64,000 nt of DNA, from NCBI GenBank assembly GCA_035308905.1, contig DATGFS010000042.1, positions 67,093-131,092 of the forward strand, in the 5' to 3' direction. The notes under the pieces were generated by a model. It did not search any database and was not told the origin of the DNA. It saw only the letters and a list, made by a program, of their open reading frames with translations. The stretch is from a bacterium (GTDB lineage Bacteria > Sysuimicrobiota > Sysuimicrobiia > Sysuimicrobiales > Segetimicrobiaceae). Below are positions 24,146 to 61,907 of the stretch, piece by piece. The position numbers and the translations under genes are program-made. How positions within the stretch are numbered: the stretch's first letter is position 1; each line of letters begins with the position of its first letter.

Positions 24146-25021
24146 GTGGCGCGGATGGAGATCGTGTTGGGCGACGAGGTGTTTGGCGCGACGCTGTCCG
24201 AGGAGGCGGCGCCGAAGACGGCCGCGGCGGTGCTGAAGGCGCTGCCGTTCGAGGGCCGGGCGGTGCACGCGCAGCTGAGCGGCGACATGTTCCGGATGTT
24301 CGAGCACGCGCCGATTCCGATCGAGGAGACGGAGAACAAGCAGGCGTTTCAGGCGCCCGGCGAGATCGTCTACTATCCTCCGATCAAGGAGATCGCGATC
24401 GCCTACGGCACGGCGCGGTTTCGGGGCACCGCGGGCTTCCTCTATCTCACACCGCTCGGATTCATCGACGAGCAGGACCTGCCGCGCCTCGCCAAGACGG
24501 CGGAGCGTCTGATGTGGGACGGCTCGAAGCGGATTCAGTTTCGCCGGGCCGAGGGCGCCGCGGCCCCGGCCGGCCGGACAGCCGAGGCGGGCCGCCGGCA
24601 GATCGAGATCGACGTGGACGGCGTCACCGTGACGGCGTCGCTGCTCGACGCGACCGCGCCGAAGACCGCGGAGGCGCTGTGGGCTGCCCTGCCGCTCAAG
24701 GGCCGCGTCACGAACACGAAGTGGAGCGGCCAGATGCTGCGGTTTTGGGGCGGCGACGGCGAGCTCGGGCAGGTGCCGATCCGGCTCGAAGCGGCGGAAA
24801 ACGGCCAGGAGCTGCACTGGCCCGGCTATCTCTACTACCATCCGGCGTACCGCGGCCTGCGGCTGTGCTACGGGCAGGCGCAGCAGAGCGGGCCCGCGAC
24901 CGTGTCCCATCTGACCCCGCTCGCCCGCCTCACGGGCGATTGGAACGCGTTCCGCGCGAAAGCGTCCGCGATCATGTTCGAGGGCGCCAAGACGATGACG
25001 ATCCGAAAGAAGGAGCGATAG
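24146..25021 (+). CDS. Fused protein with two DUF3830 domains
   Basis: The product is 291 aa (GTG start behind GGGGGAGGGG). Residues 1-140 and 150-291 are each a full DUF3830 module. Module 1 has AVHAQLSGDMFRMF and FQAPGEIVYYPP, like the protein at 18836. Module 2 has VTNTKWSGQMLRFW and YLYYHP, like the protein at 19282. A 10-residue Ala/Gly-rich linker joins them. The fusion reproduces the order of the separate upstream pair, which argues that the two types form a functional heterodimer. Codon use matches the neighbours. Confidence 0.75.
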   Translation: MARMEIVLGDEVFGATLSEEAAPKTAAAVLKALPFEGRAVHAQLSGDMFRMFEHAPIPIEETENKQAFQAPGEIVYYPPIKEIAIAYGTARFRGTAGFLYLTPLGFIDEQDLPRLAKTAERLMWDGSKRIQFRRAEGAAAPAGRTAEAGRRQIEIDVDGVTVTASLLDATAPKTAEALWAALPLKGRVTNTKWSGQMLRFWGGDGELGQVPIRLEAAENGQELHWPGYLYYHPAYRGLRLCYGQAQQSGPATVSHLTPLARLTGDWNAFRAKASAIMFEGAKTMTIRKKER

Positions 25022-25025
25022 GCGG

Positions 25026-25442
25026 ATGCGGAAGATCACCGTGGATCTCGACGGAGTCCGCGCGGAGGGCGAGTTGTGGGACGACCGGGCGCCGAAGACG
25101 GTGGCCGCGCTCCTCCCGCACCTGCCGATTACCGACCGGACGATCCACGTGCGCTGGTCCGGCGCCGCCTGGCGCACGGAGAAGAACTACCCGCTCAAGG
25201 TCGGCGAGGTCGAGAACCGGGCGACGTGGCTCGAGCCCGGCGACATCATCTACTACGACGCTCCGGAGCACCAACTGTTCAAGGTCGCGTTCATCTACGG
25301 CGTGAGCCAGTGGCGCGAGCCGAAGGGCGAGCTCTACGTCGCGCGCATCGGCAAGATCACGGAGAACCTCGATCCGTTCATCAAGACCTGCGAACAGGTG
25401 CTGTTTCAGGGGCCGAAGGCCGTGGCGATTCGGCTCGCGTGA
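25026..25442 (+). CDS. DUF3830 family protein, additional copy
   Basis: The product is 138 aa, starting 4 bases after the fused gene with its SD (AAGGAG) inside the end of that gene. The family pattern is ITVDLDGVRAEGELWDD, APKTVAALLPHLP, then TIHVRWSGAAW (closest of all the copies to the family HVRWSGE consensus I remember) and LEPGDIIYYDAP. It lies directly before an SBP gene, so each peptide-type importer in this region is preceded by DUF3830 genes. Confidence 0.75.
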   Translation: MRKITVDLDGVRAEGELWDDRAPKTVAALLPHLPITDRTIHVRWSGAAWRTEKNYPLKVGEVENRATWLEPGDIIYYDAPEHQLFKVAFIYGVSQWREPKGELYVARIGKITENLDPFIKTCEQVLFQGPKAVAIRLA

Positions 25443-30686: not shown

Positions 30687-30782
30687 GAATCGCACGCCGG
30701 CGGATTGAGAAAAAGGGTGGCGGCGACGCGGCCCGAATTGGCCGGATGCACAGCGGGCCACATGCGAACAAGGGGGTGGAGG

Positions 30783-31148
30783 GTGGCCAAGTTTCTCATC
30801 GTGAGCTCGGTTGGTTCCCAGGATCCCACGCGGGCAAGCCTTCCGTTCCATATCGCCGTGAACGGCGCGGTTCCCGCCGGGCACGAGTGCGGGATTGCGT
30901 TCACCGGTGATGCGACCGACCTCCTGAAGCGAGACGTCGCCGGAGCCGTCCGCGGCGTCGGCGTGCCGGCGCTGGCCGATCTTCTCGCAGGATGCGCCCA
31001 AAAGGGCGTTCGGTTCTACGTGTGAAAAGGGTGTGCCGAGGCCCGTGGGGTCTCGCAGCAGCACCTCGAAGGATATCCAGCGCAGTTCATCACGCCGCCG
31101 GACCTTGCGCGGTTGACGGTCGAGGCGGATCGGGTGCTGACGTTCTGA
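30783..31148 (+). CDS. DsrE-family selenoprotein with Sec-x-x-Cys motif (in-frame UGA at 31023-31025)
   Basis: The product is 121 aa if the in-frame TGA at 31023-31025 is read as selenocysteine. Start GTG 30783 has AGGGGG six bases upstream. The N-terminal half has DsrE traits: KFLIVSS, FHIAVNGAVPAGHECGIAF and a GVGVPALADLL block. The frame continues after the TGA as KGCAEARGVSQQHLEGYP for 40 more codons of normal composition to a TGA at 31146-31148, and DsrE proteins normally have Cys or another redox residue at the interrupted site. The result is a U81-K-G-C84 redox motif. A SECIS-like hairpin follows. It is probably a small cytosolic redox protein; partner unknown. It lies 35 bases before an SBP gene. 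Confidence 0.8.
31034..31060 (+). promoter_or_regulatory. Bacterial SECIS-like hairpin of the DsrE selenoprotein
   Basis: CGAGGCCC (31037-31044) pairs with GGGTCTCG (31048-31055; one G-U pair) around a 3-base loop GTG. Outside it TGC (31034-31036) pairs with GCA (31058-31060) across a two-base CA bulge. The loop begins 19 bases after the UGA. This fits the known bacterial SECIS rules (small G-containing loop 16-37 bases downstream) and mirrors the grdB hairpin at 61629. Confidence 0.75.
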
Positions 31149-60572: not shown

Positions 60573-61907
60573 ATGGACGCTCACGGGTTGCGGGTGGTTC
60601 ATTACATCAACCAGTTCTTCGCGGGGATCGGCGGCGAAGAGCGCGCCGACACGCCGCCGGCCGTCAAGGACGGCCCGGTCGGTCCCGGACGGGCGATCCA
60701 GGCCGCCCTCGGTTCGCACGGCGCCGTGGCCTCGAGTATGGTCTGCGGCGACAGCTACTTCAACGAGCGGATCGACGCGGCCGGCGAGGCGGTGCGCGCG
60801 TGGCTCGGCGCGCAGCGGCCCGACGTGGTGATCGCGGGCCCGGCGTTCGCCGCGGGCCGGTATGGGCGCGCCTGCGTCGAGGTGTGCCGCATCGCCGCGG
60901 ATCTCGGGATTCCCGCCGTCACCGGCATGCACCCCGAGAATCCCGGGCTGTTGATGTACCGGGAGGCGTACGTCGTGCCGACCGCCGGCAACGCGGCGGG
61001 CATGGCCGCGGCGCTCGGCGCGATCGTGCCGCTCGCCCGCAAGCTCGGCGCGGGGCTCCCGGTCGGACCGGCGGAGGACGAGGGCTACCTGCCGCGCGGC
61101 ATCCGGCGGCCCGGAGCGCGGGCGCTGCCCGGGGCGCGGCGGGCCGTCGATATGCTCGTCGCCAAGCTCGGCGGGACGCCGTTTCGCACCGAGCTCCCGG
61201 TCGAAGGCTACGAAGCCGTGGCGCCCGCGCCGCCCGTCGCGGACATGCCCCACGCGACGATCGCGGTGGTGACGACCGGCGCGATCGTGCCGAAGGGCAA
61301 TCCGGACCACCTCAAGCGGTGCAGCGAGACGCGGTGGCAGCGCTACGAGCTGGAGGGGCGGACGCGCCTCGAGCCGGACGAGTTCGAGTGCGTCCACGGC
61401 GGCTTCTACAACGTCCCGGCGTCGGAGAACCCGAACGTCGTGCTGCCGCTGGACGCGCTGCGGGAGCTCGAGCGCCGCGGCCTCTTCGCGCGGCTCGCCG
61501 ACTTCTACTGCACCACGACCGGCAACGACCAGCGGTTCGCGGACTGCGTGCGCAACGGCAAGGAGATCGCGGAGCTGCTCTGGCAGGAGCGGATCGACGG
61601 CGTGCTGCTCGTCGCGACCTGAGGGTCGTGCAATCGTTGCGGCGCAACGATCAGCAAAGAGATCGAGCGGCGGCGGATCCCGGTGGCCGTGATCAGCGCG
61701 CTGCCGCCGCTGGCGATGCAGGCCGGCGCGAACCGCGTCGTGCAGGGGGTCAAGATCGAGCACGTCTGCGGGGACCCGGCGCTGCCGGCGGAGGAGGACG
61801 GGGAGGTGCGCCGGCGCCTCGTGGAGCGCGGGCTGCGGGCGCTCGGGACCGCGGTGGAGCGTCCCACGCTCTTCGAAGGGGACGGCACGATGGTGACGGC
61901 GCGGTGA
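60573..61907 (+). CDS. grdB: GrdB-like selenoprotein (glycine/sarcosine/betaine reductase component B), in-frame UGA at 61620-61622
   Basis: The product is 444 aa if the TGA at 61620-61622 is read as selenocysteine; without it the protein would end at 349. Start ATG has GAGG eight bases upstream. GrdB features run across the UGA: VHYINQFFAGIGGEERAD, IAGPAFAAGRYG, VTGMHPENPG, GYLPRGIRR, IVPKGNPDH, then VLLVATUGSCNRCGATISKEIER, matching my memory of the TSTUGTCTRCG Sec site. U350 with Cys353 and Cys356 forms the redox centre that attacks the C-N bond of the substrate. The frame continues to 61907 with normal family sequence. It overlaps grdE by 4 bases. Component B specificity (glycine, sarcosine, betaine or another amine) is not decided here. 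Confidence 0.9.
61629..61656 (+). promoter_or_regulatory. Bacterial SECIS-like hairpin of grdB
   Basis: ATCGTTGC (61633-61640) pairs perfectly with GCAACGAT (61644-61651) around loop GGC. TGC (61629-61631) pairs with GCA (61654-61656) across an internal A/CA loop. The loop starts 18 bases after the UGA, as expected for a SelB-recognised element inside the coding sequence. Confidence 0.8.

Follow-up and report, generated by a model that had tools for sequence, protein, structure and literature searches.

A DsrE-like selenoprotein with selenocysteine (Sec) in a UxxC motif was described from the Sargasso Sea in 2005, with two sequences there and one in sequenced genomes (PMC1088965), and another was reported from Desulfovibrio vulgaris in 2006 (PMC1794560). 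In the GOS data of 2008, the group DsrE 2 comprised 19 Sec and 15 Cys sequences and the group DsrE 1 two Sec sequences (PMC2398784). A 2026 review lists the PF02635 UxxC selenoprotein family as 'predicted with high confidence', its biological function being largely uncharacterised (PMC13188914). An example record is WP_014524487.1 of D. vulgaris. Among Cys-containing proteins of this fold, DsrE binds sulfane sulfur at Cys78 and passes it onward (PMC3397948), and the first Cys of DsrE3A (PDB 3MC3) corresponds to the established DsrE active site (PMC4175335). YedF consists of a SirA/TusA-like and a DsrE-like part with a CGxC motif and has been tied to selenium metabolism (PMC5322559).

The gene described here lies in a 64,000-nucleotide stretch of DNA, called the window throughout, and is a new member of this already described, functionally uncharacterised family of DsrE-like UxxC selenoproteins. 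Judged by the published definitions, it shares with the earlier members the Pfam DsrE domain, Sec in UxxC, a downstream SECIS and its origin in bioinformatic prediction; it differs in coming from Ca. Sysuimicrobiota and in being part of a large clade that showed no Cys form. The original prediction had announced a previously hidden selenoprotein, adding that such proteins might have been proposed before. This reservation was justified by all four publications on the selenoprotein family cited above. The word hidden suits the window gene itself, which is left as a truncated ORF that no NCBIfam model reaches, but not the family, published in 2005-2008. What we add is the Sec clade without an observed Cys form, together with recurrent partner genes of the TusA/YedF-like and Sec-containing ArsM-like types.

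The reading frame runs on the forward strand from a GTG at 30783 to a TGA at 31146-31148 and encodes 121 amino acids, with an in-frame TGA as codon 81 (31023-31025) and 40 further codons before the terminal TGA, exactly as first claimed. The start agrees with the MAK... N-terminus of relatives, and the purine-rich aagggggtggagg directly 5′ of it (30770-30782, forward strand) is by its sequence a likely ribosome-binding site. As had been anticipated, gene calling with table 11 ends the ORF at codon 81 and yields a truncated product, and in NCBIfam 20.0 no model reaches the Sec-DsrE group above its cut-off. When codon 81 is translated as U, however, the PF02635 domain continues unbroken across the TGA (residues 3-121, E 4.6e-15), scoring 56.3 bits against a gathering threshold of 22.7 and covering positions 2-116 of the 116 in the profile; all 40 members of the family alignment match PF02635 as well (E <= 0.001). 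Sec81 forms the motif UKGC with Cys84 (31032-31034, forward strand), the putative resolving cysteine, and both residues are invariant in 40/40 aligned Sec-DsrE proteins. The window gene and six Sysuimicrobiota relatives (39-78% identical) each contain one TGA, at the identical codon in all seven, and the 40 codons beyond it are conserved in every close relative. Comparison with the relatives L024-L027 showed that substitutions downstream of the TGA fall mostly on third codon positions (4/2/19 against L024 and 5/3/21 in a further case), and upstream of it the third positions likewise gather most of the differences, which indicates that both parts are under constraint at the protein level.

The genome of the host, an uncultured soil bacterium (4.0 Mb, 97.3% complete), encodes the whole Sec pathway, bearing out the expectation that UGA can be decoded as Sec in this organism. 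It contains selA (547 bits, cut-off 268), selB (333 bits including a neighbouring match, cut-off 242) and tRNA-Sec (68.7 bits, cut-off 47), all three on one contig, as well as selD (389 bits; G000:C3:79138-80058, L018). The selD gene has an in-frame TGA of its own, so that the selenophosphate synthetase probably contains Sec as well. Within the phylum, selA exceeds its cut-off in 33 of 43 genomes, and relatives of the window protein were found in 11 of the 43 by protein search. The window also holds the second selenoprotein gene named by the original prediction, a GrdB (glycine/betaine/sarcosine reductase selenoprotein B) of 444 amino acids at 60573-61907 on the forward strand (TIGR01918, 446 bits, cut-off 65), with Sec350 encoded by the TGA at 61620-61622 in the motif UGSCNRC. 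Like Sec-DsrE, it has a UxxC motif (UGSC) and its own SECIS-like hairpin of matching geometry, but the two are unrelated in fold and function; the GrdB gene is not part of the Sec-DsrE operon and serves as context for Sec decoding. The machinery and this Sec-type GrdB together lead one to expect that UGA is decoded as Sec in the host cell. Two further GRDB matches exist in the host genome (C28 and C64), and the one on C28 also has UGTC after TGA.

A SECIS-like hairpin downstream of the TGA was likewise part of the original prediction. It is found at 31038-31054 on the forward strand and consists of GAGGCCC (31038-31044), a GTG loop (31045-31047) and GGGTCTC (31048-31054), giving a 7-bp stem in which nucleotides 16-22, counted from the U of UGA, pair with 26-32; C31037 and G31055 could form an eighth pair. 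Among 93 non-redundant sequences in register, 94.3% of the positions are paired as expected, compared with 28.9-64.2% when the partners are slid by 1-3 nt and 87.1% (maximum 88.8%) when synonymous codons are shuffled among the sequences. Pair 18-30, which like the other pairs 16-18/30-32 and 21-27 was unconstrained by the search pattern, is formed in 93/93 sequences by GC, CG, UG or UA and exceeds every other column pair in corrected mutual information. The codons for Ala-Arg-Gly within the hairpin are also strongly biased, GCC being used in 83/93, CGT in 82/93 and GGG in 86/93 sequences, whereas outside the hairpin the same genes use them for 45%, 9% and 22% of those amino acids; homologues of non-Sec type have mostly CGC and GGC at the Arg and Gly codons. 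Such a bias, together with compensatory changes beyond the synonymous control, argues for selection on the RNA and not on the protein alone. Judging from this covariation, the hairpin 3′ of codon 81 is a true bacterial SECIS.

To look beyond the phylum, we scanned GTDB contigs with a DNA pattern containing TGA, because a Cys back-translation cannot encode this codon. Of the 79 stretches recovered, 77 belong to the DsrE family by profile; the other two, L070 and L073, were chance matches. According to the database labels of the MAGs concerned, the 77 records span about ten phyla: Chloroflexota, Dormibacterota, Thermomicrobiota, Acidobacteriota, Actinomycetota (including Ca. Aquicultor), Myxococcota, Thermodesulfobacteriota, Planctomycetota, Pseudomonadota, SAR324 and Sysuimicrobiota. 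No relatives were found in the viral collection searched. The selA gene scored above its cut-off in 32 of 35 Sec-DsrE genomes tested, as against 1 of 14 control genomes. Since the GTDB pattern itself demanded a TGA, a profile search of 400 Chloroflexota genomes provides the fairer test of this codon. Among the matches listed, 41 had an in-frame TGA, 40 of them a single one and one two, and none had TAA or TAG in frame. In L174 (G173:C74), a DsrE frame interrupted by TGA twice, one of these codons belongs to UxxC and the other lies within a short insertion near the N-terminus.

The next homologues in the Chloroflexota search have open frames with either a Ser-type motif (SGMS) or CxxC at the UxxC site. 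The Cys forms (CGAC, CGTC, CSPC and CGPC; L161-L168, L171-L173) have their motif exactly at the position of UxxC, which agrees with the claim that the TGA stands where a redox Cys is expected. The proposed search for Cys-containing relatives that match beyond the TGA thus had a positive outcome, with CGACTKPRGI aligning to UKGCAEARGV. In a tree of 120 rows, the Sec rows are explained by a single label change and the Cys rows are grouped together elsewhere, although the Sec group has weak support (63/65) and the alignment itself is short. Two members from Desulfobacterales, L064 and L105, are placed among the Sec sequences. No Cys ortholog occurs inside the Sec group within the sampled sequences, which is a property of the sample and not a proof. 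Close to the Sec clade lies another group of DsrE sequences (L029, L154-L160, L169, L170), which has Ser at the motif positions, typically SGMS, and apparently lacks the catalytic residues; at L089 the Sec and Ser types are both found within 8 kb.

If the TGA were a true stop, as a table-11 gene caller takes it to be, the locus would be a truncated gene of 80 amino acids or a pseudogene followed by a frame that is open by chance. This we regard as very improbable, given that the identical TGA and the 40 downstream codons are conserved across many phyla, that purifying selection acts downstream, that the SECIS covaries and that the genome has the Sec machinery. Readthrough would be equally expected had UGA been reassigned throughout the genome, for instance to Trp or Gly. 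The terminal codon varies between TGA, TAG and TAA in the homologues and the internal one is always TGA, a constancy that rests on homologue searches not requiring TGA, which implies readthrough at codon 81 and termination at codon 122. UGA thus terminates the Sec-DsrE gene and also neighbouring genes, the residue that homologues have at the site is Cys and neither Trp nor Gly, and the host has a complete Sec pathway; reassignment is therefore rejected as extremely improbable. From the machinery, the conservation and the SECIS together we predict that the UGA at codon 81 is, almost certainly, decoded as Sec by the SelA, SelB, tRNA-Sec and SelD of the host under direction of the SECIS.

An AlphaFold2 model of all 121 residues, built from a 40-row alignment, has a pLDDT of 98 and a pTM of 0.91; in it, Sec81 is the last residue of a central beta strand (77-81) that leads into a helix (82-87). 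The best PDB matches by Foldseek are YchN (1jx7), 3pnx, 3mc3, DsrEFH (2hy5) and TusBCD (2d1p), with E values from 3.6e-07 to 2.9e-05, and sequence alignment puts Sec81 opposite the conserved Cys of 3mc3, YchN and 3pnx. Via the 3MC3 alignment, Sec81 occupies the position of the persulfide-carrying Cys78 of DsrE/TusD and is the predicted active site. The resemblance to DsrE of DsrEFH and TusD of TusBCD thus concerns the fold and this position; Sec-DsrE has Sec for Cys and an additional Cys84 completing UxxC, and its gene is not accompanied by dsrF/dsrH or tusB/tusC, none of which is a neighbour at the window locus. Among solved structures, DsrE3A (SSO1125 in 3MC3; also known from Metallosphaera cuprina) is the best full-length sequence match (E 8.9e-08 with the family profile), its YVC being aligned with the YVU of Sec-DsrE, and it has in common with some Sec loci a TusA partner. 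DsrE3A, however, has Cys-x7-Cys (PMC4175335) and Sec-DsrE U-x2-C. With YedF there is a likeness where a Sec-DsrE gene follows a TusA gene, a split version of the TusA plus DsrE arrangement, but Sec-DsrE is not fused and has Sec instead of Cys. Membership of the window protein in YedF was rejected, as it lacks an N-terminal SirA/TusA domain and the YedF models (TIGR03527/PRK11018) match none of the 40 Sec-DsrE members at E <= 0.001.

At the window locus itself, the gene lying 96 bp upstream encodes a sugar-isomerase-like TIM barrel and the other side is occupied by an ABC-transporter cluster, with neither TusA nor another conserved partner among the neighbours, so that any function has to be deduced from homologues of other subclades. 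Elsewhere in the window, a pair of adjoining genes for DUF3830 (cyclophilin-like) proteins at 24146-25439 lies upstream of a peptide-type ABC transporter. The only TusA of the host genome follows a second DsrE gene, whose active-site position has one Cys only (YACSMM), on contig C66 (G000:C66; L123, L190). A TusA/YedF-like gene is found on the same strand about 10-110 bp upstream of Sec-DsrE at seven Sec loci (L055, L056, L059, L064, L105, L111 and L030/L040 of G023, the last from the genus of the window). One such TusA had YedF as its best NCBIfam match, although its 62.4 bits fall short of the cut-off (79), and the pair of TusA and Sec-DsrE could possibly represent a split YedF. We found no paper on such a pair among titles and abstracts dealing with DsrE, selenocysteine, TusA or glycine reductase. 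The second recurrent partner is an ArsM-like methyltransferase, present on the same strand at seven Sec loci (L060, L076, L090, L118, L121, L141, L174) and four Cys loci (L161, L164, L167, L173). Where its critical codon is readable this is TGA in 9/10 genes (DLWTG-U-IAGALL), usually with a hairpin, L167 having Cys; the TGA genes lie near Sec DsrE at all seven Sec loci and near Cys DsrE at L161 and L173. Beside Sec-DsrE they make two adjacent selenoprotein genes, and their UxxG corresponds to the motif given for Sec arsenite methyltransferase, a recognised selenoprotein. Partners of either kind, with small ones surveyed by homology, are linked at only ~14 of the 93 non-redundant Sec loci. Most of the large clusters of neighbouring genes were discarded because they reflected no more than synteny or antisense frames in Dormibacterota-type genomes that are close relatives of one another.

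Taken as a whole, the data are best explained by a genuine DsrE/DsrF-family selenoprotein, a reading we consider very probable. The recurrent TusA/YedF-like and Sec-containing ArsM-like partners suggest chalcogen or metalloid handling, and the most likely mechanism, to which we would give an even chance, is a chalcogen-relay/reductase step in the handling of sulfur, selenium or a metalloid. The Sec81 selenolate would take sulfane, or another chalcogen, from a TusA/YedF-type carrier, and formation of a Sec81-Cys84 selenenylsulfide would then release the bound chalcogen reductively, since the UxxC pair should make a Sec-bound chalcogen releasable in this way. The same selenoprotein might instead be a general thiol-disulfide or peroxide reductase, thioredoxin-like and carrying no chalcogen. 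UxxC is indeed a classic thiol-redox motif, DsrE-like proteins were placed among thiol-dependent redox proteins in 2005 (PMC1088965), and a sulfur-relay partner is absent at most loci; yet the fold and the Cys position are those of persulfide carriers and the recurrent TusA/YedF-like partner is a chalcogen carrier and not a reductase, leaving this a minority possibility. Somewhat less probable still is a role in arsenic or selenium detoxification together with the Sec-containing ArsM-type methyltransferase, Sec81 and Cys84 binding or reducing the metalloid. As half of the partners are ArsM-like and not TusA, the physiological substrate may be arsenic or selenium instead of sulfur, and the high proportion of ArsM-like genes with TGA fits such a role; against it, the pair is absent at the window locus and in close relatives, and the best ArsM-like match of the host genome (C38:54877-55398) has no in-frame TGA in its aligned part. 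Beyond the relay mechanism itself, we propose only tentatively, and with more doubt than conviction, that Sec-DsrE might be the selenium-dependent core of a chalcogen/metalloid pathway widespread among uncultured bacteria of soil, the subsurface and the sea, in which its partner from the same operon would be a split YedF-like TusA or a Sec-ArsM, and that the clade might require Sec.

What makes the finding interesting is how broad the Sec clade is and which partner genes accompany it, rather than the window locus. For 20 years DsrE-like selenoproteins have stood on lists, as a handful of sequences with no function. This locus shows that they form a real family, which is common among uncultured members of Chloroflexota, Dormibacterota, Sysuimicrobiota and other phyla; standard gene calling truncates its genes, and the use of selenium by soil and subsurface lineages is undercounted. 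If it is true that the clade needs Sec, this would contrast with the published picture of Sec/Cys mixtures, and the TusA/YedF-like or ArsM-type neighbours in some genomes provide testable substrates for Sec-DsrE.
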